A stretch of DNA of 64,000 bases from Collimonas arenae (GTDB lineage Bacteria > Pseudomonadota > Gammaproteobacteria > Burkholderiales > Burkholderiaceae_D): positions 4,154,001 to 4,218,000 of the forward strand of contig NZ_CP009962.1 in NCBI RefSeq assembly GCF_000786695.1. Direction: 5' to 3'. Under the pieces are notes generated by a model. The model ran no database searches. It was given only the letters and a program-made list of their open reading frames with translations, and was not told where the DNA came from. Made by a program: the position numbers and the translations under genes. This document shows, piece by piece, positions 25,431 through 64,000 of the stretch. Position 1 is the first letter of the stretch. Each line of letters begins with the position of its first letter.

Positions 25431-26579
25431 TCAAGCTCTCAGGCTTGCTTGCGGTTCGGTCACTCCGCGCATTGCCAGCACGTCGCGATAGAGCGTTGCG
25501 TAGCTCTCACCCATCACTCGTGCCGTGAATAATTTATGATAACGCGCCTGAGCACGAAGCCCCATTGCCTGCGCCTGACCGGGATCGTCCCATAACTGCT
25601 GCATCGCAGCCCTGAAGGCATCTGGATCGCTAGGAGGAACCACGATGCCGGTTTCGCCATGGTTGTTGATATAGCTGGTGCCGGTACCGATTTCGCTTGA
25701 AATCATCGGTTTGCCATACATTGCGCCCTCCAGCAGGGAAATGCCAAAGGCTTCCGAGCGCAAGTGCGAAGGAAAGACCAGCGCGTAGCATTGCCGCAGC
25801 AAGGCGACCTTGTCTTCATCGCTGACAATGCCCAGGAAAATCACATTGCTCAATCCTTCTTCGGCGGCACGCTGTTTGAGTTCCTGTTCGATCGGGCCGG
25901 CGCCGACGATCACGATCGGGTAATTGGTTCCGCGTGCTGCATCCAGCAGGATATGCAAGCCTTTGTAATAACGGATAGCGCCGACAAACAAGAAAAACCG
26001 GTCGCCGATGCGTGCTTGCCATTCCGCCATCAATGGCTCTGACGGGGTTGGATAGTTGCTTTTATCGAGTCCGATGGGAATGACCTGCGTTTTATCCTTG
26101 TAACCGGCTAGAACCGAGCTGGTTTGCAAATAGTTAGGCGAAGTGGCGACGATTGCATCGACGCTGCTGAGAAAGCGATGCATCAAAGGCCGGTATAACT
26201 GCAACAGGGCTTTATAACGCACGATATCGGAATGATAGGTCACTACACTTGGCTTGTTTATGCGCGTAACAAAATGCACCAGATCCATGAATGGCCACGG
26301 AAAATGGTAGTGCACCAAATCGAAATCGTCAGCCAGCTGGGCAAAACGCTTGATGGCGGAAAATGAAAAACCGGTAGAGGCAATATGCAAATCCAGCTTG
26401 ACCCGATGCACCTTGTGCCCGTGATACATCAATTCGGCCGGCTCAGGAGATTCGCTCAGCGTCAGCACTTCGCTTTCAATACCGCTGGCCGGCGAACACT
26501 TGCACAGCTGGTAAATGGTCTGCTCGACGCCGCCATATGACTCCGACTGGTAAGTCTTGTAAAAATGAAGAACTCGCAT
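25431..26579 (-). CDS. wbpZ: Glycosyltransferase (GT4), WbpZ-like D-rhamnan initiation
   Basis: A 382-residue GT4 glycosyltransferase; RVLHFYKTYQSESYGGVEQTIYQL at the start and SEAFGISLLEGAMYGKPM with the EX7E motif near the C-terminus. It is the last gene of the polysaccharide operon and by order and length corresponds to WbpZ of the P. aeruginosa A-band locus, thought to add the first D-rhamnose to the lipid-linked GlcNAc primer. It may act at the inner-membrane face. A 126-bp AT-rich gap separates it from the preceding gene, larger than elsewhere in the cluster. Start at 26579 chosen from the family motif; 26594 is an alternative. Confidence 0.82.
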   Translation of the reverse strand: MRVLHFYKTYQSESYGGVEQTIYQLCKCSPASGIESEVLTLSESPEPAELMYHGHKVHRVKLDLHIASTGFSFSAIKRFAQLADDFDLVHYHFPWPFMDLVHFVTRINKPSVVTYHSDIVRYKALLQLYRPLMHRFLSSVDAIVATSPNYLQTSSVLAGYKDKTQVIPIGLDKSNYPTPSEPLMAEWQARIGDRFFLFVGAIRYYKGLHILLDAARGTNYPIVIVGAGPIEQELKQRAAEEGLSNVIFLGIVSDEDKVALLRQCYALVFPSHLRSEAFGISLLEGAMYGKPMISSEIGTGTSYINNHGETGIVVPPSDPDAFRAAMQQLWDDPGQAQAMGLRAQARYHKLFTARVMGESYATLYRDVLAMRGVTEPQASLRA

Positions 26580-26705
26580 TGCATTCTCTTTCATGTTCTG
26601 CCCCATCTTCCGTCGCAACAGGATGTAAGAGCTCTTTTCTATTGGCGCCGACTGCCTGTCTCCACACCAGTCTACCTAAGACTACTTAAGATCAAACAAT
26701 ATTAT

Positions 26706-27845
26706 TTAACTATGCGCGACTTGCCGATACACCCCAGCAGTGATCGCAGCACATTTTTCCCAGGAAAAATCCTGTGAGCGCGCCAAACCGGCGCTACGCC
26801 GCTCCGTCCAGTATCCGTCATCCTCCATCAGCCGCCGCATTTGCTCGGTCAGAGCAACCTCGTCTTGCGGACCAACATAAGTACCAGCTGTCCCCCCCAC
26901 TTCCGACAGACTTGCGCAATCAGATGCAATGACCGGCGTACCGCTGGCCATGGATTCCAGCAACGGCAGGCCAAAGCCCTCGTACAGAGACGGAAACACC
27001 ATGATCCTGGCGGCGGCCGTGACACAAGCCAGATCTGCCTGATCCAGATAACCCGCAAGACGTACGTAACCGGCGCTCACCGCTTGCGCCAGCGCACCGC
27101 TCCATGCCTCGGCTTGCCAGCCTGCCATGCCGACCACCAGCAACGGGAAACGCGCGCGCAACGACTGCGGCAACCGCGCATGGGCCTTGAGCGTCAACGC
27201 CAGATTCTTGCGTGGCTCCAGCGTGCCAACCGAAAGAACAAAGCCGCGATAAGTCAGGCCCAATTTTTTTAAACGAAGCGCCAGCTCCGGTTCGTTCCGT
27301 GGCCGAAAGATCGCTGAACAGGCAAGCGGCGCCAGCACCACCTTTTCCGCCGGCAGGTTGAATTGCCTCTTTACTTCTGTGCCAATAAACTCGGAGTCGA
27401 CCAGTATCCGGCTGGCGCGCGCCACTGCCGATGGCAAACGCCGTTCAATTTCCTTCAGACGATCTTTGGGCTGCGTTTGCGGATAATGAATATGTGTAAG
27501 ATCATGCACTGTCATCACTGTCGGCCCGGAAAAATTCAGCGGCCACAAAGTCGGCTCGTGATACACATCAGGAGCAATCCTGCGTACTCCGCGATTGAAA
27601 CATAATTGCTCAAGCGCCCGGCGCATCATGTAGGCCGCCGGCAGGCGCTTGGCAACGCCAGACCAACGCGCGTATTCCGGCATCGATGCAGTTGCCAATG
27701 CCGGCCGCCAGCGGGCGCCGTAAAAATACTGCATGTCCAGTTCGCTATCTTGCTGCAAGGCTTGCGCAAGCTCGGCGACATAGTTGCCGATACCGGTGCG
27801 CGGAGCCAGCAGGATTTTGCTATTTAGTGCAATCGTCAGTTTCAT
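26706..27845 (-). CDS. wbpY: Glycosyltransferase (GT4), WbpY-like
   Basis: A 379-residue GT4 enzyme with MKLTIALNSKILLAPRTGIGNYVAEL, SVGTLEPRKNLALTL and EGFGLPLLESMASGTPVIASD (EX7E). Fits WbpY, which in P. aeruginosa adds alpha-1,3-linked D-rhamnose from GDP-D-rhamnose. The order (after WbpX, before WbpZ) is the same as in that locus. The start ATG at 27845 lies inside the end of the previous gene (26-base overlap), indicating tight coupling; an in-frame GTG nine bases earlier is a weaker option. Confidence 0.82.
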   Translation of the reverse strand: MKLTIALNSKILLAPRTGIGNYVAELAQALQQDSELDMQYFYGARWRPALATASMPEYARWSGVAKRLPAAYMMRRALEQLCFNRGVRRIAPDVYHEPTLWPLNFSGPTVMTVHDLTHIHYPQTQPKDRLKEIERRLPSAVARASRILVDSEFIGTEVKRQFNLPAEKVVLAPLACSAIFRPRNEPELALRLKKLGLTYRGFVLSVGTLEPRKNLALTLKAHARLPQSLRARFPLLVVGMAGWQAEAWSGALAQAVSAGYVRLAGYLDQADLACVTAAARIMVFPSLYEGFGLPLLESMASGTPVIASDCASLSEVGGTAGTYVGPQDEVALTEQMRRLMEDDGYWTERRSAGLARSQDFSWEKCAAITAGVYRQVAHS

Positions 27846-29220
27846 CACAGCCACTTTGCACGTACTGACGAACGTTGGTTTGTTGCAGAACCCGCTGCAC
27901 CAGTTGACGCGCAGAATTCTCCCAATTCAGCCAGGACCAGTCTTTTATTGTCCGCGGCGCAGGAAAAACGCCGCTGCTTTCAAACTGCCTGACTTGCCGC
28001 GCCAGCGAGTCCGGTTGGTCCAAATCAAAATAACTCATAAAATCGCCGCCAATCTCATGGAAAACAGGTATATCGCTGCCCATCGCCGGCAAACCACGCT
28101 GCATCGCTTCCACCACCGGTAAACCAAAGCCCTCCACGAATGACGGGAAAACCAATGCCTTGGAGTGGCTATAGGCATATTCCAATTCGACGTCGCTCAG
28201 ATCATTAAACATGTAAAGCCGTCGTTTCAGCTCCGGATGCGTTTTCACTCGCTCGATCAGGCGCTCATTTTTCCATCCTATGCGCCCAATGAAGCACAAG
28301 ACGACATCGCCGCCCTCTTCCCACAAGCGATCAAAGGCATCGAGCAAGTAAGCGTGGTTCTTGCGAGGCTCTATGGTGCTGACCATCAGATAGACAGAAC
28401 GGCCGGATATGAACAATTTCTTCAACACGGGGCGCACTGTTTTACAAGGACCAACCTGATCGAGTTCGGAACCCAGATGAAAAAAATCAAACCACCGGTT
28501 CCCGGCCTGCTCAGTACCTAAGCGCCGTTGCACCTCGGTCCGCACTTCATCGCGTATGGTGCCGGATATCGCAACGAAACCGTTTGCCGTGTTGGCAATC
28601 CATTCAAACCAACGATCGAAAACCTGGACCAGCGGACCATCGCAAAATTGCGGATGGGTTAAAGGAATCAAATCGTAAATAACCGATACGATAGACACGC
28701 CCTGTTGCTGCAGTTTTTCCGCTACCGGAAAAAAATCTGCATGCCACGACGAATCCAGCAGCACCAGAATGTCATCGGAACGGCATTCCATTTCAAATGC
28801 GCGCGGACGCACTTCAATTTTTTTCAGCAGCCATTCTGCCAAATACAAGGGCAACATGAACGACAAACTGAGTAGTCGGCATAGGACATATGTCACACGC
28901 TTGGCATTGTGAAATGCGTTCCACGGCCAATGGTACAACAGGCGGGAATGAAGCAACCAGTAACGATTGCGTATCTGCACCAGTTTTTGCGTCGCCTTTT
29001 CCAACTTTTCTTGCAAGCGGCTACGCCAATCGTCACCATAATCTGGCGCCAACTGTTTGACTTCAAGCAGCTTTCCTTGTTTGAATATGACGGGAATGCA
29101 AACCGCTTCATCCTGAACTGACGGCAGATGATTGATAATATTGCGGACCACGCGTTGTATGCCGGAATTCATTTCCGGGTGATGAAACACATACGTGCAT
29201 TCGATCAGTAGCCTAGTCAT
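27820..29220 (-). CDS. wbpX: Glycosyltransferase (GT4), WbpX-like
   Basis: A 466-residue glycosyltransferase (WbpX is about 460): MTRLLIECTYVFHHPEMNSGIQRVVRNI at the start, DILVLLDSSWHADF, and SFVEGFGLPVVEAMQRGLP with EX7E. In P. aeruginosa WbpX adds the alpha-1,2-linked D-rhamnose of the trisaccharide repeat. The ATG at 29220 overlaps the wzt stop (ATGA, 4 bases), and its end overlaps wbpY, so it is translated as part of the same operon. The enzyme sequence contains two hydrophobic stretches around residues 100-130, probably membrane-associated. Confidence 0.82.
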   Translation of the reverse strand: MTRLLIECTYVFHHPEMNSGIQRVVRNIINHLPSVQDEAVCIPVIFKQGKLLEVKQLAPDYGDDWRSRLQEKLEKATQKLVQIRNRYWLLHSRLLYHWPWNAFHNAKRVTYVLCRLLSLSFMLPLYLAEWLLKKIEVRPRAFEMECRSDDILVLLDSSWHADFFPVAEKLQQQGVSIVSVIYDLIPLTHPQFCDGPLVQVFDRWFEWIANTANGFVAISGTIRDEVRTEVQRRLGTEQAGNRWFDFFHLGSELDQVGPCKTVRPVLKKLFISGRSVYLMVSTIEPRKNHAYLLDAFDRLWEEGGDVVLCFIGRIGWKNERLIERVKTHPELKRRLYMFNDLSDVELEYAYSHSKALVFPSFVEGFGLPVVEAMQRGLPAMGSDIPVFHEIGGDFMSYFDLDQPDSLARQVRQFESSGVFPAPRTIKDWSWLNWENSARQLVQRVLQQTNVRQYVQSGCDETDDCTK

Positions 29221-30473
29221 GCTGTAACCTCAATCTTGCGCGCATATCCATATGAACGTTCGACCGCCATCTCGGCGTCCAGGAATGCACAACCGACAAA
29301 GTCGGGATGCTGCGTATTGATTACATGGAAAATGACGCTATAGTCGCGCCACTCATAGTTGGTATCCAGATGCGAGTCCAGCCGCGACAAGGAAATGGCT
29401 ACCGAATAGCTGCCCTTGCCCAGGTTCACCGGAAAGCGACAGCGATACACCAACTCTTCGTCGGCCACCAAGTCCGTCTGCGGCATCTCGAGCCGATGTG
29501 TATTGATGCCAAAGATCGACTGCCCCAGTTTGTCCTTGATCATGTACCCCATCACCAGCCGCGGTATGGCGACATTGATCGCAACCCGTATTTCCAGCGT
29601 GGCGTAGGCGCCGACTTCGATCACATCAAGCTTCTTACCCTCGTCATCCAGCAAGTTCACGGACACAATACTGGCTTCACCTGTACCGGAAATCGTTCTT
29701 AACCTGCCGTCTTCCAAACGCTCTTGCCTGACGGTTTGCTGCTCGCGCTCTGCCAGCATGGCATTATAAAAATCCATTACTTCGACCGGGTCGCCCTGCA
29801 TTTCCAGGCGGCCGCGATTCAGCAGGATGGCGCGATCACAGATAGTCTGGATGGCATAACGATCATGCGAAACAATCAGCAAGGTGGTGCCAGAACGTCG
29901 GAATTCCCTGATCCGTTCAAAGCTTTTATGCTGGAAATAAGCGTCGCCGACAGACAGCGCTTCGTCAACAATCAACACGTCCGGCCGGCTGGCCGTGGCG
30001 ACGCTGAAAGCCAGCCGCATCTGCATGCCACTCGAATAAGTACGCACCGGCTGGTCGATGTATTCGCCGATTTCCGCAAACGCTTCGATCGCCGGCATCA
30101 AAGATGCAATTTCGTCACCGCGCAAACCCTGCAGCTGACCGGCCATGATGGCATTTTGCCGGCCGGTAAAATCGGGATGAAAACCCATCCCGAGTTCCAG
30201 CAGTGCCGCCACCCTTCCCCGAATATCGATGGTGCCAACGGTGCATTGGGTGGTTCCTGCAATCAGTTTCAACAACGTGCTTTTGCCAGCGCCGTTGATG
30301 CCGACGATTCCCACCGCCTCACCGGCCTCCAGCTCAAAATCGATGCCCTGCAAGACCCAGTGCAACTGATGGCGCGGTTTGGCAAACGGGATTAACCATT
30401 CCGCCAGGCGCGCCCAGCGGCCGTTATATGATTTATAGGCCTTGCCCAGGCCTTTCACGGTAACCTTACCCAT
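29217..30473 (-). CDS. wzt: ABC exporter ATPase with C-terminal carbohydrate-binding domain (Wzt)
   Basis: A 418-residue polysaccharide export ATPase. GINGAGKST (58-66) is Walker A, YSSGMQMRLAFSVAT the signature region and DVLIVDEALSVGD Walker B. Residues about 250-418 are the extra Wzt C-terminal module, a beta-sandwich that in O9a- and related systems binds the chemically capped, non-reducing end of the finished chain. Presence of this long module fits export of a terminally modified polymer and the two methyltransferases upstream. It overlaps wzm by one base (TGATG). Confidence 0.92.
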   Translation of the reverse strand: MGKVTVKGLGKAYKSYNGRWARLAEWLIPFAKPRHQLHWVLQGIDFELEAGEAVGIVGINGAGKSTLLKLIAGTTQCTVGTIDIRGRVAALLELGMGFHPDFTGRQNAIMAGQLQGLRGDEIASLMPAIEAFAEIGEYIDQPVRTYSSGMQMRLAFSVATASRPDVLIVDEALSVGDAYFQHKSFERIREFRRSGTTLLIVSHDRYAIQTICDRAILLNRGRLEMQGDPVEVMDFYNAMLAEREQQTVRQERLEDGRLRTISGTGEASIVSVNLLDDEGKKLDVIEVGAYATLEIRVAINVAIPRLVMGYMIKDKLGQSIFGINTHRLEMPQTDLVADEELVYRCRFPVNLGKGSYSVAISLSRLDSHLDTNYEWRDYSVIFHVINTQHPDFVGCAFLDAEMAVERSYGYARKIEVTA

Positions 30474-31285
30474 CAGAGTTCATCCACCATTTCACCTGCG
30501 TGCCGGCGGAACAGCAGCATCCCGAAAGCACACAAGAGCACGCTCAACAGCGTAACCACCCACAAATCGTTCCAGTGCGGCCATATGCCACTGACAAAAA
30601 TTCCCTGATAGGCAACGACCAAAGCAGTCATTGGATTAAATTTGAGCAAGGTTTGTACGGCGGCAGGCAAGGTGGAAACCGTATAGACAATTGGTGTAAA
30701 CCAGAACCAGAATTGCAGCACGATGCCAAACAGTTGGCCGATATCGCGAAAAAAGACGTTTAACACTCCAAGCACAATCCCCAGACCAGCGGAAAACAAC
30801 ACTTGTATCAATAGCAGCGGCAACATGCCGAAGAAAACCCAGCCGGGAAAATTACCGGACACCAGCAAGAAGCCGAGGAACAAGGTAAAGATGATGCAAA
30901 AATTCAAACCTGCATTCATGACGGTGATAATGGGCAGGCAAATACGCGGAAAATTCAGCTTCTTGAGCATGTTGCCGTTTTCCAGAAACATGTTTTGCAT
31001 GCGCGACACAGTCTCTGTGAAAAATCCCCATGTCAGCAAGCCAGCGCACAGATAAATCCCGTAAGCGAACTGGCTGCTGGCGTTTGGCAAGCGTGCATGC
31101 ATCAACTGCGAAAAGATCACCGTATAGACCACGATCATGGCGAGCGGATTCAACACCATCCAGGCAGCGCCCAACATCGAATTGCGATAGCGCGACTGAA
31201 ATTCGCGCTTGACGCTACCGATAATAAAGCCACGGTAATGCCATATCGAACGCAACAGTGTGTGCGTCCTTGTTTTCTGCATCAT
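30473..31285 (-). CDS. wzm: ABC-2 type polysaccharide export permease (Wzm)
   Basis: A 270-residue inner-membrane permease with about six spans (MLGAAWMVLNPLAMIVVYTVIF, YLCAGLLTWGFF, FCIIFTLFLGFLLV and following). GSVKREFQSRYRNSMLGAAW is typical of ABC-2 polysaccharide exporters. It pairs with Wzt to flip the lipid-linked polymer across the inner membrane. Its ATG (31285) lies two bases after the GDP-mannose synthase stop; an in-frame GTG at 31303 overlapping that gene is possible. The stop and the wzt start share one base. Confidence 0.88.
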   Translation of the reverse strand: MMQKTRTHTLLRSIWHYRGFIIGSVKREFQSRYRNSMLGAAWMVLNPLAMIVVYTVIFSQLMHARLPNASSQFAYGIYLCAGLLTWGFFTETVSRMQNMFLENGNMLKKLNFPRICLPIITVMNAGLNFCIIFTLFLGFLLVSGNFPGWVFFGMLPLLLIQVLFSAGLGIVLGVLNVFFRDIGQLFGIVLQFWFWFTPIVYTVSTLPAAVQTLLKFNPMTALVVAYQGIFVSGIWPHWNDLWVVTLLSVLLCAFGMLLFRRHAGEMVDEL

Positions 31286-31287
31286 CT

Positions 31288-32775
31288 TCAACACTGCTTG
31301 CACCTGCCGTACTTGTCGTCAAAACGTACGATATCGTCTTCGCCAAGATAAGCACCGCTCTGCACTTCAATCATGACCAGTTCCAGCAAGCCGGGATTTT
31401 CCAGACGGTGCCGGGTACCGGCCGGGATGTAGGTCGATTCGTTGGTGTTAACATAGATTTCCTTGTCGCCATTCACCACCTTGGCCATGCCATGCACCAC
31501 GACCCAGTGCTCGCTGCGATGATGATGCATCTGCAACGACAGCGACGCGCCCTGCTTTACCACGATGCGCTTGATCTTGAAATTGGGTCCTTGTTCCAAC
31601 AATGTGTAACTACCCCACGGCCGGAACACGGTACGGTGCAATTTGTAAGTGTCGTGCTGAGTACTCTTGAGCTGATGCACAATCTTCTTCACATTCTGCA
31701 CATGGTCCGGATGTGCGATCAGAAGTGCGTCAGGCGTGTCCACCACGATCAGGTTATTGACGCCGACGGTCGCCACCAGGCGCTGTTCAGAGTAGATGTA
31801 ATTATTATTGCTGTCGATCAGAACCGCTTCGCCCAGTACGCGATTTTCTTGTTCGTCAGGCTCGACCAACTGGCGCAACGCTCCCCAGGAACCGATATCA
31901 TTCCAGTCAAAGCCGGCCGATATCACTGCGACCCGATCGGAGTGTTCCAACACCGCATAGTCGATCGAAATATCATCCATCGCCATGAAACTCTCGCTGT
32001 CCAGTTCCTGCAGCAAGACGCCTGCCGCTGTGCTGGCCGGGCTGACTTCAATGCAAGACGTGGCTTTCGTCAGAATTTCCGGAGCGTACTTTTCCAGCTC
32101 GCTTAAAAAGGTCGATACCGAGAAACAAAATATGCCGGCATTCCACAGGTGCTTTCCGCTTTCAACAAAGCCGGCAGCACGTTCGGCGTCCGGCTTTTCA
32201 ATGAAACGCTTTACCTGAGCAGCACCGTCGTCGTCAATTTCCGCGCCGCATTCGATATAGCCGAAGCCGGTTTCCGGTGTCAGCGGCCGTATCCCGAATG
32301 TCACCAGATAACCTTGCTTGGCGACTTCCACCGCATGCCGCACAGCTTCGGCAAAACATTCGACATCCTTGATCAAATGATCCGCAGGCATCACCACCAT
32401 GATGGTATTGTCGCCGTGCAGAGCGCGCAGGGACACTGCCGCCGCTGCGATCGCAGGCGCTGTATTTCGTCCCGATGGCTCAAGCATGAAATGCGGCCGA
32501 TGATGAGCTCCCAGATCGGCTGAAATGAATTCGTCTTTGCTCTGGAAATAATAGTCGCGATTCGTCACGCTCAGAATGTCGCCACGGATGCCCAGTTGCG
32601 CCACCCGCTGATAGGTTTTCTGCAGCAGGCTTTTCCCATCAGGAAGTTTGATGAAGGGCTTAGGATGCCCTTCTCGCGAGACTGGCCACAAGCGCGTCCC
32701 GGCGCCGCCTGAAAGCACTACCGGAACGATTACCGCTGTTGTTGTCAATGGAATACCGGGTTCTGGCGTACGCAT
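31288..32775 (-). CDS. wbpW: Bifunctional mannose-1-phosphate guanylyltransferase / phosphomannose isomerase (WbpW/ManC)
   Basis: A 495-residue enzyme making GDP-mannose, and by its C-terminal domain isomerising fructose 6-phosphate to mannose 6-phosphate. VVLSGGAGTRLWPVSREGHPKPF (pyrophosphorylase signature, 29-51 region), FIEKPDAERA, LWNAGIFCF, and the cupin-like end QMHHHRSEHWVVVHGMAKV with the metal His/Glu are all present, as in PMI/GMP type II enzymes (AlgA, WbpW, XanB). In the operon it follows gmd, as in P. aeruginosa. GGGGGAG ribosome binding site precedes the ATG. Confidence 0.93.
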   Translation of the reverse strand: MRTPEPGIPLTTTAVIVPVVLSGGAGTRLWPVSREGHPKPFIKLPDGKSLLQKTYQRVAQLGIRGDILSVTNRDYYFQSKDEFISADLGAHHRPHFMLEPSGRNTAPAIAAAAVSLRALHGDNTIMVVMPADHLIKDVECFAEAVRHAVEVAKQGYLVTFGIRPLTPETGFGYIECGAEIDDDGAAQVKRFIEKPDAERAAGFVESGKHLWNAGIFCFSVSTFLSELEKYAPEILTKATSCIEVSPASTAAGVLLQELDSESFMAMDDISIDYAVLEHSDRVAVISAGFDWNDIGSWGALRQLVEPDEQENRVLGEAVLIDSNNNYIYSEQRLVATVGVNNLIVVDTPDALLIAHPDHVQNVKKIVHQLKSTQHDTYKLHRTVFRPWGSYTLLEQGPNFKIKRIVVKQGASLSLQMHHHRSEHWVVVHGMAKVVNGDKEIYVNTNESTYIPAGTRHRLENPGLLELVMIEVQSGAYLGEDDIVRFDDKYGRCKQC

Positions 32776-32788
32776 ATTCGTCTCCCCC

Positions 32789-33811
<1,023 letters not shown>

Positions 33812-34753
33812 CTAAAGCGTAGGCTGAATCGTGCGCTCGGCGCCGGCCCGCGCATCCCAGTCTTGCAGGACACTCAGTAAAGTCTGTTGCATGGGAATGG
33901 CAGGCTGCCATCCTGTTGCCAGCGTAAGTTTTCTATTGTCGCCCTTCACGCGACGCAGATCGGAAGGTCGCAGTCGTGACGGATCCTGTTCGATCGCAGC
34001 ATCGATCTCGGTCAGATACAACATACTGGCGATCATGTCTCGGATCAGATATTCCTTGCCAGAACAAACGTTGTAGATTTCACCGTTCTGCCCTTTTTCC
34101 AGCAAGGACAGATAGGCCGAAATGACATCTTCGACATCAAGAAAATCGCGGGTGACATCAACATCGCCGACCTGGATGCGTGGTTCCTGTAAGCCCAGCC
34201 GTATACGCGCCAACTGCCGCGCGACGCTGGATATCACGAAATCTTCCCGCTGCCCGGCACCAATGTGGTTGAACGGACGCGCGATCATGATGCGCCACGG
34301 CAGATTGCAACTCCATTGATAGCACAGGAGTTCCGCAGCAGATTTGCTGACCGCATAAGGATTTTGCGGACGTGCGGGTTGTTGCTCGCTGATCGGCAGC
34401 AGCTCGGGATTCACCTTGCCGTAAACATCGCCGGAACTGACGTAGAGAAAAGTGCCGCTGAACCCGTTGCCTTGCAGCGCCTGCAACAGATTCAGGGTTC
34501 CCTTCAGATTGACATCCAGTGTATGTGCGGGATCGCGGAATGCTTCCGGGATAAAAGTCTGTCCGGCGAGATGAATGACAGCATCCGGACGTGCCTGCTG
34601 CAATACGAGATCCAGCGAAGCCGGATCCAGCAGATCATAAGAACCGGCGGCGGATATCAGTTGCCAGCCGTGCGCGGCAACGCTATGTTCGCGCAGGCGC
34701 TCAAAAGTAAGACCGACAAACCCTGACTGGCCGGTAATAAATAGTCGTTTCAT
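33812..34753 (-). CDS. rmd: GDP-6-deoxy-4-keto-D-mannose reductase (GDP-D-rhamnose synthesis)
   Basis: A 313-residue SDR enzyme that reduces the Gmd product to GDP-D-rhamnose. MKRLFITGQSGFVGLTFERL is the Rossmann start, YVSSGDVYGKV and NPYAVSKSAAELL (YxxxK) the active site, and ARPFNHIGAGQREDFVISS and DVDVTRDFLDVEDV are typical of Rmd. It is the third gene of the GDP-D-rhamnose pathway. AAGGAG precedes the ATG at 34753. Together with gmd and wbpW it completes synthesis of the donor sugar for the polymer. Confidence 0.9.
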   Translation of the reverse strand: MKRLFITGQSGFVGLTFERLREHSVAAHGWQLISAAGSYDLLDPASLDLVLQQARPDAVIHLAGQTFIPEAFRDPAHTLDVNLKGTLNLLQALQGNGFSGTFLYVSSGDVYGKVNPELLPISEQQPARPQNPYAVSKSAAELLCYQWSCNLPWRIMIARPFNHIGAGQREDFVISSVARQLARIRLGLQEPRIQVGDVDVTRDFLDVEDVISAYLSLLEKGQNGEIYNVCSGKEYLIRDMIASMLYLTEIDAAIEQDPSRLRPSDLRRVKGDNRKLTLATGWQPAIPMQQTLLSVLQDWDARAGAERTIQPTL

Positions 34754-34807
34754 ATGCAGCCGCTCCTTCTCTGCCGTTGTAAATTTAAAACCATATCGCA
34801 ACTTCCA

Positions 34808-35665
34808 TCATGGCTTGCGTGCGACAATGATCTGGCTCTTGGGCATGAAATCGTTCAAGGCGCTCCTGACGTGTTCGCCGTTCGGACTATCCATCAGGAT
34901 TTCCCAGGTTTTTGCCCAACTCTCCAGCAGAGGGTGTCGAGGATTGCTCAGATCAACCTTGCAAACCCAAAAAAGCAGCCACCAGACCGACCAGTAGAAG
35001 CCATAATATTCGTGACGTTCAATCACCAGGCCTGCATCGGTCACCATCTTCTCAAATTCGTCGCGCTGAATAATCCTGATATGGTTCGGCTTTTCAAAAT
35101 GAGAAGCTGGCGCTACCTGTTTCTGCAGATTCTCTTGTACCGGATCCGGCACTGACAGCAAGTAATGCGAACCTTGCTGGCCAACCCTGACCAGTTCACT
35201 CAGGAATTGAACAGGATCGTCAACGTGTTCAAGTACTTCCATGCATACCACTTTTGATGCTGTGCCGCTTTCCAGCGGCAATGGATTAGCATCGCTCACG
35301 ACGCATTGCACGATCCGCGCAGGAGTTTCTGTCAGCCGTTGCCTGGTGAACTCAACTTTGTCTGCATCGATATCAGCCACAATTACGTGAGCGCCGCGGT
35401 GTCCGCAAAACAATGAATTGCCACCGTCACCGCAGCCAATATCAAGCACGATGTCCTCCGCATTAATAACGAAGCCGCGATAGAGTTCATCGCTTTCCTG
35501 CAAATACCAGCCGCTCGCCAAGGCGTCGCGCAATCCGACATGAAAGGAATCGGCGGGCGCAACCGGAGCCGCCGGTACTATTTCAATAACCGGCGCAATC
35601 GGGACAATCGGGGCCAGGGCATCATTCCTGGCGATACCGAAAAATTTTCTGATCATGTCGCGCAT
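34808..35665 (-). CDS. Class I SAM methyltransferase, polysaccharide cluster (first of two)
   Basis: A 285-residue methyltransferase. VLDIGCGDGGNSLFCGHRGAHVIVADIDADK (72-102 region) binds SAM, followed by VVCMEVLEHVDD and HYLLSVPDPVQ. The N-terminal 40 residues are Pro/Ile/Val-rich and low complexity. A similar protein is encoded at 36854-37726 (shared IVLD(I/V)GCG(D/E)GG, FEKPNHI/FQKPNHI, and the C-terminal MPKSQ.I.ARKP ending). It likely caps or decorates the rhamnan; the P. aeruginosa locus also has two methyltransferases (PA5457, PA5459). Substrate position unknown. Confidence 0.82.
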   Translation of the reverse strand: MRDMIRKFFGIARNDALAPIVPIAPVIEIVPAAPVAPADSFHVGLRDALASGWYLQESDELYRGFVINAEDIVLDIGCGDGGNSLFCGHRGAHVIVADIDADKVEFTRQRLTETPARIVQCVVSDANPLPLESGTASKVVCMEVLEHVDDPVQFLSELVRVGQQGSHYLLSVPDPVQENLQKQVAPASHFEKPNHIRIIQRDEFEKMVTDAGLVIERHEYYGFYWSVWWLLFWVCKVDLSNPRHPLLESWAKTWEILMDSPNGEHVRSALNDFMPKSQIIVARKP

Positions 35666-35691
35666 GCTAATTTTTCTTCCATCGTGATGAT

Positions 35692-36834
35692 CTATGTTTG
35701 AAGCTGAAACCTGGACTGCCCCATTTTTTCGGCAATTCTTTTGCCTTGTGCACGTAAGGGCGTCTCGACAAAGCGGTAGTTAAGTTCGCTGAATATGACT
35801 ACCAGCACTGCTGCAGTGAGAGCGAGCCTTACGTTGTAGGTATGATCGAAAATGGTATCTGTGGGAGCAATCCAAAACCAGATCTGCCGACTCATCAGAT
35901 AAGCCGGCATGTGCGTCAGATACAGCGCATAGGAGCGGCTGCCAACCCAAAGCAATATGCGCTTCAATGGATTGTCCGGCATCAGATAATCCATGTCATA
36001 AGACGCAATCCATACCAGCACAATGGAAATCAACGCCACGATGCCGACCCAATAGCGAAAATCCTGATATTGCGGCGATCCGATTTTTGCGAGACCTGCC
36101 AGAAGAATCAGCAACAGCGTAAAACGCGCCCAGTTTAGATTTTTCAAGAACACCGGCTCCAACCTGCGATAACTGTCATGCTTGCTCCAGATTGCCAGCA
36201 ACACACCTAACAACAGCGCATCAGATCGCACCAGCATCAGAAATAAGGAATGGTGACGATTCGCAAAAAATTGCAGCACAACCAAGATAATCAATACACT
36301 GGACAGCCAGCGACGACAAATAAAGACGGCAAACGGTAGCAGCAGATAAAACTGCTCTTCCAGGGAAAGGCTCCAATATGGCGTAGTCGGACCAAGTTCA
36401 TCATGGCCGAACTTCAACATCACGCGGAAATTCATGTAGTTCAAAAATCCTGCCAGGCTTCCTTCCAGATTCACCTGAAGCGAGCTGAATATTCCAGATT
36501 TCTTGAACGCGACTGTTGCCAGCAGCAACAGTACCAGCCAAAGCCACGCGGTAGGCCACAAGCGCCAGGCGCGCCTTACCCAGAATTTGACTGCAACTGA
36601 AAAAAATGTTTCCCGATCCCCGCTGCGATCAAGCCGCGGAATCAAATCTCTGGCAATCACGAATCCCGAAATCGCAAAGAACAAATCAACGCCATTCCAG
36701 AATCCGAAATGCGTGTAGATGAACGCAAGACCGTCGCTTGGCTGCCCGAATAAATTGAAGCGCGTATGCTCGAACAAAACGAATAGCACCGCGATTCCGC
36801 GCAATAGCTCGATATCTTTAATGCGATGATTCAT
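35692..36834 (-). CDS. Acyltransferase 3 family membrane protein (OafA-like)
   Basis: A 380-residue multi-span membrane acyltransferase. MNHRIKDIELLRGIAVLFVLFEHTRF carries the family His near residue 23, followed by about ten spans, FAISGFVIARDLIPRLDRSGD and PYWSLSLEEQFYLL. Members acetylate or acylate surface sugars from the inner membrane. Between the two methyltransferase genes (gaps 26 and 19 bases) it resembles PA5458 of the P. aeruginosa set. Probably O-acetylates the polymer or core. Confidence 0.88.
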   Translation of the reverse strand: MNHRIKDIELLRGIAVLFVLFEHTRFNLFGQPSDGLAFIYTHFGFWNGVDLFFAISGFVIARDLIPRLDRSGDRETFFSVAVKFWVRRAWRLWPTAWLWLVLLLLATVAFKKSGIFSSLQVNLEGSLAGFLNYMNFRVMLKFGHDELGPTTPYWSLSLEEQFYLLLPFAVFICRRWLSSVLIILVVLQFFANRHHSLFLMLVRSDALLLGVLLAIWSKHDSYRRLEPVFLKNLNWARFTLLLILLAGLAKIGSPQYQDFRYWVGIVALISIVLVWIASYDMDYLMPDNPLKRILLWVGSRSYALYLTHMPAYLMSRQIWFWIAPTDTIFDHTYNVRLALTAAVLVVIFSELNYRFVETPLRAQGKRIAEKMGQSRFQLQT

Positions 36835-36853
36835 AGGTCATCAGCTCCGACGT

Positions 36854-37726
36854 TTATCTATGCTCTGGCTTGCGGGCGATAATCGCCTGGCTCTTGGGCA
36901 TGACGCTATCCAATACTTGCTTGATCCTGGCTCCCTCCGGCAACGAAATCAATTGATACCAAGTCTTTGCCCATTCATTGAGCAAAGGTGAATAAGGCGG
37001 TTTGATGTTATCGCGCGTAGCGCCATCGCCGGTGGATTCGCCTGCCCAATACAGGCACATCCAGACTGACCAAAAAAAACCGGACGCGTGATGCCGTTCG
37101 ATCTGCAAACCGGCATCAGTCACCAATGCTGCGAACGCATCACGCTCGAAAACATGAATATGGTTGGGCTTTTGAAAATGCGACGGCGGTGCCAGTTGTT
37201 TCTGCAAACCTTCTCCGACCGGATCCGGAACGGTCAGCAAATAAAGTGCGCCGGGCTGGCCAACGCGAACAAGTTCGGCCAGTACCTTTGTTGGATCGTC
37301 GACATGCTCCAGCATTTCCATGGCGACGATGCGGCTGACGCTGCCATCGGCTAGCGGTAGCGGGTCGGTGTCGCCAACCAGCGCCTGGAAGCTACGCGCC
37401 GGAACATTCGCCACATTGGCAGACAATCGTTCGACTTGCTCCGCGTCGGTATCTGAAAAAATCACATGCGCGCCACAACGCGCGGCGAACAAGGTAGCCC
37501 CACCCTCGCCGCAACCGACATCGAGGACAATATCTTCCGGACCAATTGGAAAACCCTTCAATAACTCGCTGGTGTCGGTTTGAAACCAACCGCTTTGCAC
37601 AGTATCGATAAAACCGCAGACACGTGAATCAACCACGCCATCCGCCGATACCGGCGCAGGCAACTTTTCCTGTTCAGTTATTTTTGCTTTCGAGGGACGC
37701 CACCAACCGGAAAGGAACTTGATCAT
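36854..37726 (-). CDS. Class I SAM methyltransferase, polysaccharide cluster (second of two)
   Basis: A 290-residue methyltransferase, similar along its whole length to the gene at 34808-35665. IVLDVGCGEGGATLFAARCGAHVIF (SAM loop), IVAMEMLEHVDDPTKVL, LLTVPDPVGEG and a C-terminal MPKSQAIIARKPEHR. It starts with ATG at 37726 overlapping the upstream stop by four bases (ATGA), a reliable start; the longer frame is rejected. Probably a tandem-duplicated partner that methylates a different position or step of the rhamnan. Confidence 0.85.
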   Translation of the reverse strand: MIKFLSGWWRPSKAKITEQEKLPAPVSADGVVDSRVCGFIDTVQSGWFQTDTSELLKGFPIGPEDIVLDVGCGEGGATLFAARCGAHVIFSDTDAEQVERLSANVANVPARSFQALVGDTDPLPLADGSVSRIVAMEMLEHVDDPTKVLAELVRVGQPGALYLLTVPDPVGEGLQKQLAPPSHFQKPNHIHVFERDAFAALVTDAGLQIERHHASGFFWSVWMCLYWAGESTGDGATRDNIKPPYSPLLNEWAKTWYQLISLPEGARIKQVLDSVMPKSQAIIARKPEHR

Positions 37727-39048
37727 AGGGTGACCTTTTCCGATGTGAGGTCGATATCGCGCTTGTGCATAGCGATCCGGCTGGCAAGGAAAGATTCGAG
37801 ACGTTCCTTGACCACCGCATGCGAACAATGCTGCTGCAACCGCTGAACTGCGTGGTCGGCCATTTGCCAATACCTTGCCGGATCCTGCTTGGCGACGCGA
37901 TAACTTTCCTTGTAGGCGGCAAGCAATGTACCCCAGTCTATGCGGTAACGCAGGGTACGGTATGCCTGGCGCGGATCATGCGGCCAGTGGCTCGGTTCTG
38001 TGTTGGAGTCCAGTACAAAGGCGTTGTCGCTGTCAATATAGTCGGCCATTGCCGTGTTGCGTGGCGCAATGGCTGGCTTTCCACAGGACATGAATTCCAT
38101 CAAAGGCAGGCACTGGCCTTCCCCATGCGAGGTATTCAGGATATAGGTTGTTGCCGACACCAGCTTTTCATAATCCGCGTCGCTCAGATAACCGTGGATC
38201 AACAGAACCCTGCATTTGAACGGTGTCAGCTTGTACACATTCTCCAGCAAATTATCGATACCGATCTTGACGTCATTGTGCGTCAGCTTTAATACCAGTG
38301 TGGCCTCTTCGACGTCGCGGAACGCCCAGCAAAATGCGCTGATCATGTCGTACCAGTTCTTGCGTCCGTCATAGGGGTTGAAGACCGAGGTATACACCAC
38401 GCCGTCGATATGGACCTTGACCGGCTCGCGCTTCGCAAGCGCCGGCGGCCGGACCAGGTCCGGCTTGGGATAACGGCGCAACGGGACGCTATACGGTGAA
38501 AGATCGACCGTGCGGCTATCGATGACCGTGCCGGCAACCAGCAGATCAACGCCATCAGGATAATTTGCAATCGATAATTTCTCGCGCAATGCGGCAAAAC
38601 GATCCCAGACCGGCGCAGGTATCGCCGCTACCAGAAACTCTGGCGTCATTGCCTGCCGTACCGAATTTGCAGTGTATGCGGAATGTGTAATCGCGCTGCC
38701 TACTTTATCGAACACATAGCGCCAGTCATGGCGCGGCTCGCCAAGCCAGACTTCATTAGGCAGTGTGCTGAATTCCCATGCAAATACAGGAACAGTCGGA
38801 CAAACAAGACCCACCGCGGTTTTATGCGGCGGCGAAAACGACAGGAAAACGCAGGACTCCCCATGTGCTTTGGCGCTTCGGTAGATGTCGTCCACTTCAC
38901 GTTCAGGATCACTGACGGTAACCACGATGCCCAACTGCTCAAGCACCGGGCGAAATTCCTTCAGCACAAAGTAGTAGCTGTATTCGGGCAAGCCCAGATT
39001 GGAAACAATCGAACCGGCGTTGGTATCGGAGTAAATAATAATAATCAT
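37723..39048 (-). CDS. Glycosyltransferase, paralogue B of a tandem pair
   Basis: A 441-residue glycosyltransferase. MIIIIYSDTNAGSIVSNLGLPEYSYYFVLKEF opens it, PTVPVFAWEFSTLPNEVW follows, and SHGEGQCLPLMEFMSCGKPAIAPR has the EX7E motif of GT4 enzymes. It is similar over both ends to the next gene upstream, but lacks that gene's 110-residue insert. The family resemblance to PA5455/PA5456 of the P. aeruginosa locus is inferred from position and class. Start chosen at the second Met because the paralogue begins at the same point. Confidence 0.82.
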   Translation of the reverse strand: MIIIIYSDTNAGSIVSNLGLPEYSYYFVLKEFRPVLEQLGIVVTVSDPEREVDDIYRSAKAHGESCVFLSFSPPHKTAVGLVCPTVPVFAWEFSTLPNEVWLGEPRHDWRYVFDKVGSAITHSAYTANSVRQAMTPEFLVAAIPAPVWDRFAALREKLSIANYPDGVDLLVAGTVIDSRTVDLSPYSVPLRRYPKPDLVRPPALAKREPVKVHIDGVVYTSVFNPYDGRKNWYDMISAFCWAFRDVEEATLVLKLTHNDVKIGIDNLLENVYKLTPFKCRVLLIHGYLSDADYEKLVSATTYILNTSHGEGQCLPLMEFMSCGKPAIAPRNTAMADYIDSDNAFVLDSNTEPSHWPHDPRQAYRTLRYRIDWGTLLAAYKESYRVAKQDPARYWQMADHAVQRLQQHCSHAVVKERLESFLASRIAMHKRDIDLTSEKVTL

Positions 39049-39087
39049 CTGGCACCGGGCTTTAGGGAAGGCCATAGGAAAGCGACA

Positions 39088-40746
39088 TCATGCATATTCC
39101 TCCACTGGTTGCTGGAAGAAACTGCGCAACTGCTCCTTCACGACCGTGCGGGAACTATAGGATTCCAGCCGCGCCATGGCCTGCATACTCATATCGAGGT
39201 ATTTTTCCGGCTGCTGCTTCACTGTGCGGTAACTATCCGAATACGCAGTACAAATCGACTCCCAGTCCAGGCGATAACGCAAGGTGCGGAACAGGTCGCG
39301 CGGATCATGCGGCCAGACATTATGTTCAAGACTAGACTTGATAATGAAAGCTGCGTCAGCGTCAATATAATCTTCCATCGCCGTGTGCCGTGGCGCGATC
39401 ACGGGCTTCCCGCAGCACATGAACTCCATCAGCGGCAGGCACAAGCCTTCGCACAAGGAAGTATTCACGTAATAGCTGGTAGCACCGATCAATTCTTCAT
39501 AGGCCGCTTCATCCAGATAAGCGTGCAAAGTCACGACCCTGCATTTGAATGGCGCCAACTGCGACAACAAGGTGAGCAAGGTATTGTGATACCGCGACAG
39601 ATCGCGCTCACTCATTTTCAGCACCAGCGTTGCGTCCTCAACCTCGCGAAATGTCCAGCAAAACGCGGTCACCATGTCGAACCAGTTCTTGCGGCCATCC
39701 TTGGGACTGAGGATAGAGGTATACACAACACCGCTCAGATCTACAGTCGCCTCAGGTTCCCGTTCCAGTTCCTGCACTGGCGGAATAGGCGTCGGAGTTA
39801 CTTCCTCGATCGGTTCAATCGCCTTGGGACTGTCTTCCAGTGCTACCGGCAACGGTGGTATTGCGTTACTTTCGTAGCCCAGCATCGCGCGTGCGAGGGT
39901 ATTGCCGCTGCGTCCGCTAACGGCCACCGCCCGGGCCAGCCACAAAGGCAACAGATCCCGCACAGCCTCCCGGTACCACGTCAGTAAATGACGTTTAGTT
40001 ACCGCGAGCCGGTAACGCAGAGTTTTAGCCGGTGCTGCGGGTTCAGGCGGTGCTGGCATTTGTTCAGGCTCAGGTTCGGGCTGGGGAGGCGGCGGTGCAG
40101 TTTGCGCTTCCGGCTGGGCTGGCGGCGGCATGGTTTGCGCTTCCGGCTCATCCGTCGTTTGCGAGAAAGTCATGTGTGCAATCAGACCGTCGGCGGACAA
40201 ACCCAGCAGATGACTATCGATCACGATACCGCGTAGTTGCAGCTGACTTTGACTTGGCGGCAACCTGGCTCCAAATCGCGCGCGCGGGTCGGCAAACTGC
40301 TCCCACAATGGCGCCGGCGCCGCCAGTACAGGAAATGTCGCACCCATCGCCTCTCTGACAATGCGAGCCGTATAGCTGGACAAGGTGATCGCTTTGCCAT
40401 GACGGCCGAATACTATGCGCCAATCATTACGGACGTCTTCATCCCAGAGTTCATCAGGAATATTGCTGTATTCCCAAGCGAACACCGATACTGTCGGGCA
40501 CCGGAGGTCGATCAAGGTTTTATTTGGCGGAGAAAAGGAAAGGAAAACACATTCTTCCCCGCGTTGCCGGTGCGCGTCGAACAGCGGATCGACTTCGGTT
40601 TCAGGGTGCTGCACCACGGTCACCGTGCCAAGCTCTGTCAATACAGTGCGAAAAGCTTTCAAGACAAAGTAGTAGCTGTACTCTGGTAAACCAAGGCTTT
40701 TGTTGATTGCACTTTCGCCAATATCCGAATACAGAATGAAATTCAT
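39088..40746 (-). CDS. Glycosyltransferase, paralogue A with Pro/Glu/Gln-rich insert
   Basis: A 552-residue relative of the gene at 37723-39048: same beginning (NFILYSDIGESAINKSLGLPEYSYYFVLKAF) and same end (CEGLCLPLMEFMCCGKPVIAPRHTAM, EX7E). Between them, residues about 195-335 are an insert absent from the paralogue. It has a Pro/Glu/Gln/Ala-rich tract (199-241, with PEAQT twice), a short basic helical part (244-285), and a second Pro/Glu-rich tract (295-332). The insert looks like a disordered tether or a membrane or partner contact. First gene of the cluster. ATG at 40746. Confidence 0.85.
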   Translation of the reverse strand: MNFILYSDIGESAINKSLGLPEYSYYFVLKAFRTVLTELGTVTVVQHPETEVDPLFDAHRQRGEECVFLSFSPPNKTLIDLRCPTVSVFAWEYSNIPDELWDEDVRNDWRIVFGRHGKAITLSSYTARIVREAMGATFPVLAAPAPLWEQFADPRARFGARLPPSQSQLQLRGIVIDSHLLGLSADGLIAHMTFSQTTDEPEAQTMPPPAQPEAQTAPPPPQPEPEPEQMPAPPEPAAPAKTLRYRLAVTKRHLLTWYREAVRDLLPLWLARAVAVSGRSGNTLARAMLGYESNAIPPLPVALEDSPKAIEPIEEVTPTPIPPVQELEREPEATVDLSGVVYTSILSPKDGRKNWFDMVTAFCWTFREVEDATLVLKMSERDLSRYHNTLLTLLSQLAPFKCRVVTLHAYLDEAAYEELIGATSYYVNTSLCEGLCLPLMEFMCCGKPVIAPRHTAMEDYIDADAAFIIKSSLEHNVWPHDPRDLFRTLRYRLDWESICTAYSDSYRTVKQQPEKYLDMSMQAMARLESYSSRTVVKEQLRSFFQQPVEEYA

Positions 40747-41192
40747 CAAAATCGTACTTTTAATCGAATGTTAATCGTCTACATCATTACCGCCACGATA
40801 ATCCGCGCCAGTATCTTGCTGTTTCAGACTTGTCTCAGCCCCGTAGTCGAGGCCATTCTTTTTTATGCGTGGGAGAAGTGTGGGAGCAGCCATGAGGCGC
40901 ATCGCCAAGAAAGTTTCCTGTCAAACACTGTCCACTGGCGATAATACCTGATACCGCGCGATGGTAGTGGAATGAGGCTGGGCTTTAGAGAGAGCCCCCT
41001 ATTATGCAGAAATCTTTTCGCATGGATTCTTTTGCCGGCATCATAGGCAAAATATCCGGAAGAGCTAAGTGCAAAGGGATATGGCGCGACGCAGTGCGCG
41101 CGCTCATTACATCAACGCATACTGGCTAGTGTTAGCGCCAAAGGGGCATACCACTTGGCGCGGGCGATTGCCGCGATGGCCGCTTTATGCGA
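40747..41192 (-). promoter_or_regulatory. 446-bp gene-free region upstream of the polysaccharide operon
   Basis: This stretch separates the operon from the IS5-like gene and must contain the operon's promoter, though I could not pick a convincing -35/-10 pair. GGCGGTAAT on the minus strand (40794-40786), about 40 bases before the first ATG, partly resembles the RfaH ops element (GGCGGTAGNNT), but one core base differs. No gene is supported. Confidence 0.35.
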
Positions 41193-41663
41193 TCAACTGG
41201 TCTGGACGTCGTTGCTAACCAGCCAGACCCATGATGATGAGAGTTCGTCGGCCCGTGGCGGCTTGGTATTGGCTCCGGCGGCCGATGCGAGGGCGCGGCC
41301 GTAAATTTTGACGTTGTCGCGCCGGATCGATCTTTCCGTATTCAGTCGTGTGTGCTCATCGCCCAGAATAATAATGGCTTGCAATATCACTTGCAGTTCG
41401 TGCTCGTCGACCAGGTTTTCCGCCACGCGCCGCCAGACATCTGCCTTGGTCCAACGCCGGAAACGCATGTAGCTGGTTCTCCAGCGGCCAAACTCCGGCG
41501 CCAGGTTACTCCATGTACCCGCTTTCAGCGCAACCCACAGGACCGCCTCCATAAACAGCCGATTGTCACGACCGCACATGCCGGAATCTCCCGGCCGCCC
41601 TACCAGCAAAGGCTCCAGTTTCTCCCATTGGTCATCACGAAGAACGCTATTAATTTTGTGCAT
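41193..41663 (-). pseudogene. IS5-family transposase relic (DUF4096 N-terminal part)
   Basis: A 156-residue frame. The first ~90 residues fit the DUF4096 N-terminal domain of IS5-like transposases: RDDQWEKLEPLLVGRPGDSGMCGRDNRLFMEAVLWVALKAGTWSNLAPEFGRW, then RFRRWTKADVWRRVAENL. The rest departs from the family and no DDE catalytic part, second frame or terminal inverted repeats were found nearby. Read as a truncated relic, though a small domesticated regulator cannot be excluded. It sits in the boundary between the polysaccharide operon and an AT-rich tract. Confidence 0.65.
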
Positions 41664-63761: not shown

Positions 63762-64000
63762 CTACCAGGTGAAGCCGTATCCGACTTGGAGGACAGTGTT
63801 TTGCCCCGTAGTACTGACCCCCGCACCCCAAGCGCTATTACCGCTACTGCTAACCTGTTTGAATTGCAACGCAAGCGCGTTATAGCCCTGATACGAGCCC
63901 AATCCCACTCCTAGTCCCCTTTTTCCAGGATTTATAGTCGGCATCACCACACCTGAAAGAGCCGCACCCATGGCAACACCGGAGTAGGCAATGCGTTTGA
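63762..64000 (-). CDS. C-terminal YadA-like membrane anchor of a trimeric autotransporter (N-terminus beyond window)
   Basis: The frame reads leftward and is open to base 64000, giving the last 78 or so residues of a larger protein: KRIAYSGVAMGAALSGVV, then PGKRGLGVGLGSYQGYNALALQFKQ, and the end VLQVGYGFTW. The terminal aromatic residue, alternating hydrophobic beta-strands, and GVGxYQGxxALA are the hallmark of the YadA anchor, which forms a trimeric 12-stranded outer-membrane barrel. The adhesive part lies outside the window. Confidence 0.85.
   Translation of the reverse strand, partial: KRIAYSGVAMGAALSGVVMPTINPGKRGLGVGLGSYQGYNALALQFKQVSSSGNSAWGAGVSTTGQNTVLQVGYGFTW

Follow-up and report, generated by a model that had tools for sequence, protein, structure and literature searches.

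Gene content and identity of the locus

The window analysed here, i.e., the whole stretch of 64,000 nucleotides at C1:4154001-4218000 of a 5.64 Mb genome read as Collimonas (Burkholderiales, Oxalobacteraceae) from its nearest named proteins, carries a run of 13 genes, all on the minus strand and read from 40746 down to 25431, which very probably form an ATP-binding cassette (ABC) transporter-dependent D-rhamnan O-polysaccharide locus of the common polysaccharide antigen (CPA, or A-band) type of Pseudomonas aeruginosa. A sequence-only reading had proposed 13 co-directional genes at 25431-40746 and a CPA-like D-rhamnan locus in a betaproteobacterium; coordinates and Pfam/NCBIfam families confirmed the former, and the families, the matches of Gmd and Rmd to the Protein Data Bank (PDB) and the core gene order support the latter. 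Read in order, the families comprise two glycosyltransferases (GT), a methyltransferase (MT), an acyltransferase (AT; PF01757), another methyltransferase, an Rmd-like short-chain dehydrogenase/reductase, Gmd, a guanylyltransferase/isomerase (GMP-PMI), an ABC-2 permease, an ABC ATPase with a Wzt_C domain and three GT4 enzymes. We refer to the first five genes (GTa-GTb-MT1-AT-MT2 along their own strand, head-to-tail with rmd, i.e., collinear) as the accessory block and to the other eight as the core:

39088..40746, minus strand: GTa, GT4-like glycosyltransferase (PA5455 position) with a Pro/Glu-rich middle stretch; PF13692/PF00534 at cut-off
37723..39048, minus strand: GTb, GT4-like glycosyltransferase (PA5456 position); open reading frame (ORF) opens at 39075, likely ATG 39048; 57% to a P. 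aeruginosa MH38 protein; GT-B fold model
36854..37726, minus strand: MT1, S-adenosylmethionine (SAM) methyltransferase (PA5457 position); PF08241; likely ATG 37726
35692..36834, minus strand: AT, membrane acyltransferase (PA5458 position); PF01757
34808..35665, minus strand: MT2, SAM methyltransferase (PA5459 position); PF08241; weak PDB matches
33812..34753, minus strand: rmd, GDP-6-deoxy-D-lyxo-4-hexulose reductase (GDP-D-rhamnose maker); likely ATG 34753; best PDB match 6x3b
32789..33769, minus strand: gmd, GDP-mannose 4,6-dehydratase; TIGR01472 406.9 bits (cut-off 415); PDB 1rpn, 590 bits
31288..32805, minus strand: manC/wbpW, mannose-1-phosphate guanylyltransferase/mannose-6-phosphate isomerase; TIGR01479 570 bits, above cut-off
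30473..31303, minus strand: wzm, ABC-2 permease; PF01061
29217..30473, minus strand: wzt, ABC ATPase with C-terminal Wzt_C; PF00005 and PF14524; best PDB match 8dku, residues 7-402
27820..29220, minus strand: wbpX-like GT4; family and same place in related loci
26706..27854, minus strand: wbpY-like GT4; family and same place in related loci
25431..26618, minus strand: wbpZ-like GT4; family and same place in related loci

Gene content, order and strand are direct observations. The end at 40746 corresponds to an ATG one codon inside ORF 39088-40749. GTa scores at the cut-off line in Pfam (27.1 vs 27 and 26.2 vs 26.4) and stands first in the GT pair in all eight Collimonas/Glaciimonas loci of the scan described below; GTb falls below both Pfam cut-offs (25.7 vs 27, 23.3 vs 26.4), and its predicted structure (mean predicted local distance difference test score, pLDDT, of 81) resembles GT-B/GT4 enzymes. 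A 33-bp repeat (2.2 copies, 40075-40148) lies within GTa in the Pro/Glu-rich protein stretch. MT1 and MT2 are old paralogues; the best PDB match of MT2 is a weak one to 6uv6, a D-glucose O-methyltransferase, and MT1 was not found in loci L004, L008, L010, L141, L143 and L145.

The eight core genes follow the order rmd-gmd-wbpW-wzm-wzt-wbpX-wbpY-wbpZ, as the sequence-only reading had noted for Pseudomonas, where we found the identical order with matching sequences (mean identity 53-81%). They include the adjacent GDP-D-rhamnose genes manC/wbpW, gmd and rmd (Gmd slightly below the TIGR01472 cut-off), the wzm-wzt exporter (PF01061, PF00005 and, for the C-terminal Wzt_C domain, PF14524) and, behind wzt, the wbpX-wbpY-wbpZ trio (mean identity 0.53-0.65 to Pseudomonas). 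The best PDB matches of Gmd and Rmd, 1rpn and 6x3b (370 bits for the latter), are entries which we take to be P. aeruginosa enzymes. Close relatives of the core lie in CPA-type loci. The five genes adjoining rmd are homologous to PA5455-PA5459, as had been proposed, and homologous blocks occur in Pseudomonas; the direct comparison with P. aeruginosa covers one gene, GTb, whose PA5456-position counterpart in strain MH38 (P0301) shows 57% identity. One trait of the PAO1-like arrangement, a block divergent from rmd, is replaced in the window by a collinear block, and because 14 of 72 Pseudomonadales loci are collinear too, we do not regard divergence as defining for a CPA-type locus. The gene set is not a chance assembly, since other Collimonas and Glaciimonas loci carry it too (some of them without MT1, two without gmd and manC).

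Several points weigh against this identification. The Gmd score lies just below its NCBIfam cut-off, the comparison with P. aeruginosa proteins covers a single one of the five PA5455-PA5459 positions, and the assignment to D-rhamnan would follow from genes rather than from the chemistry of the product. The divergent strand of the PAO1 block is one that we infer from its operon coordinates, from related loci and from the phrase “common organization” used in PMC6804347. Two Collimonas loci, L007/L144 (C. silvisoli) and L139 (G226), carry no gmd and manC between rmd and wzm, with no N in the sequence; the two genes have possibly been lost or are supplied from elsewhere, and in L139 rmd is also shortened. 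Finally, WbpL initiates CPA in P. aeruginosa (PMC6804347), and we found no WbpL/WecA-type initiator in the Collimonas genome, whose sole PF00953 match is MraY. That gene, at C1:5043415 (L176), scores 425.6 bits on TIGR00445 and lies beside a MurF-like gene (recognised by eye), which rules it out as a WbpL-like initiator. The missing PF00953 initiator lowers the case for the same pathway throughout, not that for the identity of the locus; following this check, our confidence in a CPA-type locus working as in P. aeruginosa slipped slightly and remains high.

Histories of the accessory block and the core

To place the locus among its relatives, we scanned named genomes by Rmd alignment, annotated the best 80 of 578 confirmed matches (at least 592 stretches) by Hidden Markov Model (HMM) and tallied the loci with strand taken into account; as contig ends or broken frames cut some of the 80 loci, counts of missing block genes are upper bounds. 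All eight Collimonas/Glaciimonas loci were collinear (five with GT-GT-MT1-AT-MT2, three without MT1), while the 72 Pseudomonadales loci comprised 50 divergent ones, 14 collinear ones, four with MT/AT only and four without any block gene. Trees were then built from a chosen subset of 47 rows, the core tree taking in 14 of the 50 divergent loci plus G021. The genome taken as P. aeruginosa PA7 was the closest (98%) in a genome scan with the 1rpn sequence, which gave no full match.

We consider it an evenly balanced proposition that block and core move separately, i.e., that two old block lineages (the collinear and the divergent type) circulate in Pseudomonas, and that the divergent block of PAO1/fluorescens-like strains has a common origin with that of Collimonas and not with other Pseudomonas blocks. 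In the core tree, rooted on five Burkholderiales loci (which hold 3 to 7 of the 7 genes used), 21 rows of Pseudomonas and near kin form one clade (100/100) with Collimonas/Glaciimonas as sister, and a clade of Collimonas with fluorescens/aeruginosa was rejected (p 0.020). By contrast, in the trees of the two block GTs, which are old paralogues that each root the other, Collimonas groups with the divergent type of Pseudomonas (100/95 and 100/96), and a clade of Pseudomonas alone was rejected for both (p 0.020 and 0.021; approximately unbiased (AU) test, groups chosen post hoc). MT2 agrees with the GTs (p 0.043). The P. aeruginosa GTb homologue P0302 (99% to P0301) falls in the divergent clade. 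The clearest case of differing block and core histories is PA7: its core groups with fluorescens (100/100), and forcing its second GT into the divergent type was rejected (p 0.00015).

Mean identities point the same way for most of the block. They are listed below as Collimonas-divergent, Collimonas-collinear and divergent-collinear, in sets limited to loci with exactly two GT ORFs:

First GT: 0.495, 0.439, 0.410 (6, 8 and 11 of 6, 8 and 12 rows)
Second GT: 0.573, 0.494, 0.484 (6, 8 and 11 of 6, 8 and 12 rows)
MT1: 0.537, 0.548, 0.491 (6, 7 and 8 rows)
AT: 0.475, 0.456, 0.497 (6, 8 and 11 rows)
MT2: 0.555, 0.553, 0.517 (6, 8 and 12 rows)

Thus, in four of the five block genes the two Pseudomonas types are farther from each other than Collimonas is from either, whereas in all eight core genes, both halves of Wzt included, divergent-collinear identity is the highest of the three pairings. 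This also disposes of the idea that the Wzt C-terminal domain tracks the block type, the Pseudomonas types being closest in both halves; as the C-terminal half follows the core and not the block, it suggests that the block type does not decide what Wzt reads.

Against separate movement, MT1 does not discriminate (p 0.437) and AT behaves like a core gene by identity. The groups were named only after the first trees, so the p values are softer than they look, and without an outgroup the core did not reject the grouping of Collimonas with fluorescens/aeruginosa (p 0.575). Among single-gene trees (all core genes except wbpX, which has no outgroup), the best ones for rmd, gmd, manC, wzm, wbpY and the C-terminal half of Wzt recover the Pseudomonas clade (the last with support of only 31); those for the Wzt ATPase half and wbpZ lack this clade but do not reject it (p 0.263 and 0.096, respectively). 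A corresponding test of a clade of Collimonas with the divergent type is a poor one for single core genes, because the divergent rows form no clade in the core. The same picture would, moreover, result if an ancestral locus had held two copies of the block and copies had later been lost. The sequence-only reading had expected the PA5455-PA5459 homologues to be the nearest kin of the block; the PAO1-like type is indeed closest for both GTs, while MT1 does not settle the matter and AT gives no such sign.

A more specific version of separate movement, to which we give slightly less than an even chance, is that the GT-GT-MT-AT-MT block is a self-contained exchange module whose two old lineages have been swapped between species with the core staying put. 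The divergent block of PAO1/fluorescens-like strains would then come from the lineage shared with Collimonas and have been inverted on arrival, the other type being the one held by PA7 and other Pseudomonas.

Plain vertical descent within betaproteobacteria, combined with losses in other lineages, is an unlikely account. Related Rmd genes do occur in 10 of 158 sampled Burkholderiales genera (own genus counted), as such inheritance would have it, yet at E<=1e-100 just 2 of 44 genera of the family (15 of 392 genomes) hold one. With the threshold at E<=1e-90, Rmd was present in 12 of 399 genomes from the order, the own genome and another Collimonas among them, and in 4 of 369 from the class (own counted). 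In nine of the ten other Burkholderiales Rmd loci (G449, with its match at a contig start, was left out) we found neither a block gene (0/9) nor a full core (0/9), although some, L159 and L160, are cut by contig ends; two of the three class-level loci likewise had no block gene and no full core. Outside Collimonas/Glaciimonas, the organism-named Rmd relatives among the best 120 matches belong mainly to Pseudomonas and Zestomonas (60-65%), the exceptions being a Sterolibacterium (62%) and a member of the Spongiibacteraceae (60%).

Orientation and gene order of the block

In divergent loci the whole block lies on the strand opposite to rmd, with a median gap of 404 bp (range 121-441) between the two; the PAO1 operon coordinates leave ~408 bp (PMC5297154). 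A common organisation has been described for the serovars of P. aeruginosa and for three named strains of P. fluorescens, P. chlororaphis and P. brassicacearum (PMC6804347), and our P. brassicacearum loci (L069, L078) are divergent. Read along the block's own strand, the genes follow the relative order GT-GT-MT1-AT-MT2 in every one of the 50 divergent loci (30 with the complete set of five, 11 without MT1, five without MT2, three without AT and one with GT-GT alone). The same order is found on one strand with rmd in L033 (GT-GT-MT1-AT-MT2-AT-rmd) and L064 (GT-GT-MT1-AT-MT2-MT-rmd), each with one extra gene before rmd. The PA7 genome has no block gene in ~9.5 kb upstream of rmd (core in L111); farther upstream (L137), with other genes between, it carries GT-GT-MT1-AT-MT2 on the strand of rmd. 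Reordering within the block was seen among collinear Pseudomonadales only, where 5 of 14 loci read GT-GT-MT1-MT2-AT and the remainder are subsets or hold extra genes.

As block order is kept and collinear blocks occur in Pseudomonas, PA7 included, the window differs from the PAO1-like layout in the orientation of one module and not in gene order. The sequence-only reading had seen permuted accessory blocks, having assumed a Pseudomonas order of MT-AT-MT-GT-GT-rmd; this fits the map order of divergent loci and ignores strand. It had also supposed that the locus moved or was inherited as a module and was rearranged once: the separate block and core trees support a module, albeit in another sense, and the rearrangement of genes found no support. 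A gene-by-gene permutation of the block in the Collimonas lineage, which would account for MT-AT-MT-GT-GT-rmd against GT-GT-MT-AT-MT-rmd only if strand is disregarded, is thus scarcely credible given the order kept in every divergent locus and in L033, L064 and PA7, and the confinement of reordering to collinear Pseudomonadales.

The collinear layout is probably ancestral and the divergent, PAO1-like one derived. In the core trees the divergent layout is restricted to the fluorescens/aeruginosa clade, with collinear loci surrounding it, and in the GT tree Collimonas and the divergent type group together to the exclusion of the collinear type; this polarity is the simplest reading of both. A strand-aware comparison thereby reverses the direction of change, making the PAO1-like layout probably the derived one.

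Compared with the P. aeruginosa CPA locus, the window shares the eight core genes in the same order and a homologous GT-GT-MT-AT-MT block beside rmd; it differs in the head-to-tail (rather than divergent) block, the lack of a detected WbpL-family initiator in its genome, the betaproteobacterial host and a DUF4096 gene upstream. PA7 resembles the window in having its block on the strand of rmd in the same order, and differs in the at least 9.5 kb between block and rmd and in its collinear-type block sequences. Its island table lists a four-gene inversion of PA5456-PA5459 in RGP80 (PMC2809737), so inversion of the accessory block is already in print. Already known, too, is an O-antigen cluster of C. 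fungivorans with rmd, gmd, manC, wzm, wzt and three GTs, described in 2022 (PMC9834719); the five-gene block goes unmentioned in the passages of that paper describing the cluster, and the genome that we take as C. fungivorans (G057) is without MT1. New leads are the separate histories of block and core, the lack of a WbpL/WecA-type initiator and a conserved, transposase-derived small gene upstream.

Flanking genes, proposed pathway and implications

Two further genes flank the locus:

41193..41663, minus strand: DUF4096-only protein, like the N-domain of an IS4/5-type transposase; PF13340
23531..25306, minus strand: GGDEF diguanylate cyclase, downstream of wbpZ; PF00990

The GGDEF gene has a counterpart (55-70% identical) in all 13 other Collimonas loci, and of the 14 other loci (13 from Collimonas and one from Glaciimonas) nine carry the DUF4096 gene (78-90% identical) upstream of GTa, while L004, L005, L008, L009 and L010 lack it within the stretch examined; neither gene was found in the Glaciimonas locus L009. 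Because the GGDEF gene flanks 13 of 13 and the DUF4096 gene 9 of 13 other Collimonas loci, the site looks common to the genus, and the locus apparently occupies one site across Collimonas. In P. aeruginosa a cyclic di-GMP-responsive methyltransferase lowers CPA chain length (PMC7168646).

The DUF4096 ORF (156 residues) looks like a fragment of IS5. The ratio of nonsynonymous to synonymous divergence (dN/dS) between the window copy and the nine others is 0.068-0.086 (dS up to 1.7), which indicates purifying selection. The genome holds 14 further matches (38-48% identity; one short, one with a stop), and no DDE part was recognised in 13 of these ORFs, read by eye without a domain search. For eight of the 15 copies, a trimeric-autotransporter gene is found no more than 3 kb away (0.42 expected; 0 in 20,000 random placements), although not all eight are independent, as two have nearly identical surroundings and two are no more than 9 kb apart. 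Across three further Collimonas genomes, 4 of 23 copies are so placed (expected 0.33; 7 of 20,000 placements); copies there are enriched beside autotransporter genes, yet most are not beside one. A YadA_anchor domain (the end of a trimeric autotransporter) lies at the right edge of the window (63765-63932, minus strand; C1:4217765-4217932). DUF4096 matches occur in 14 of 145 genomes of the family (E<=1e-20); those reaching the C-terminal third are confined to Collimonas (3-14 copies in the seven genomes with matches, own included) and one Glaciimonas genome, and in six other genera they span the first two thirds only. The DUF4096-only proteins may represent a transposase-derived regulator family; nothing on such a regulator turned up among the literature matches listed, and the predicted structure (mean pLDDT 47) was useless.

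The leader upstream of GTa (~40700-41010, minus strand) contains stretches that are similar across 15 Collimonas/Glaciimonas loci, including ~35 bases directly before the ATG. A JUMPStart/ops leader was ruled out as a conserved element, GGCGGTA occurring upstream of GTa in only 3 of the 15 leaders. Sigma-70-like sites were no commoner than in shuffled sequence; terminator-like sites numbered 32, against a shuffle mean of 20.9.

The CPA pathway comprises GDP-D-rhamnose synthesis, cytoplasmic assembly by GT4 enzymes, export by Wzm/Wzt and ligation (PMC12608077, PMC5297154). In Collimonas, ManC, Gmd and Rmd would make GDP-D-rhamnose, from which WbpZ, WbpY and WbpX would build D-rhamnan in the cytoplasm on a lipid-linked primer; Wzm/Wzt would export the chain, its end probably being read by the Wzt C-terminal domain, and a ligase encoded elsewhere (two PF04932 genes elsewhere in the genome are candidates) would join it to the lipid A core. 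Enzyme specificities, primer and sugar identity are here predicted from gene families. As the WbpL step lacks a counterpart of its family, chain initiation must differ from that of P. aeruginosa, and since no WbpL/WecA-type enzyme was found in the genome, the primer probably comes from another kind. The best candidate is a PF02397 sugar transferase of a second polysaccharide cluster near C1:1.011 Mb (L232:1190-1750, 194.9 bits), the only one in a search that covered 60 kb around C1:1.0 Mb and, by motif, the window. PA5455 and PA5456 are required for CPA in P. aeruginosa, and PA5457 and PA5458 are dispensable (PMC5297154). From these mutant needs and the protein families, we propose that GTa and GTb would be needed for the polymer or its first sugars, and that MT1, MT2 and AT would methylate or acylate it.

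As no WbpL-type initiator was found, one has to ask what primes the chain. If the block is indeed an exchange module, the decoration of a surface polymer could change through the replacement of a single 6-kb block; and should block and core be exchanged independently, the function of the PA5455-PA5459 homologues could be tested on natural contrasts, between Collimonas that have MT1 and those that lack it and between the Pseudomonas block types. Pyocin L1 has CPA as its receptor, and D-rhamnose is bound by putidacin L1 as well (PMC3916391); the locus thus leads to the prediction that bacteriocins of soil Pseudomonas that bind D-rhamnose could recognise Collimonas.

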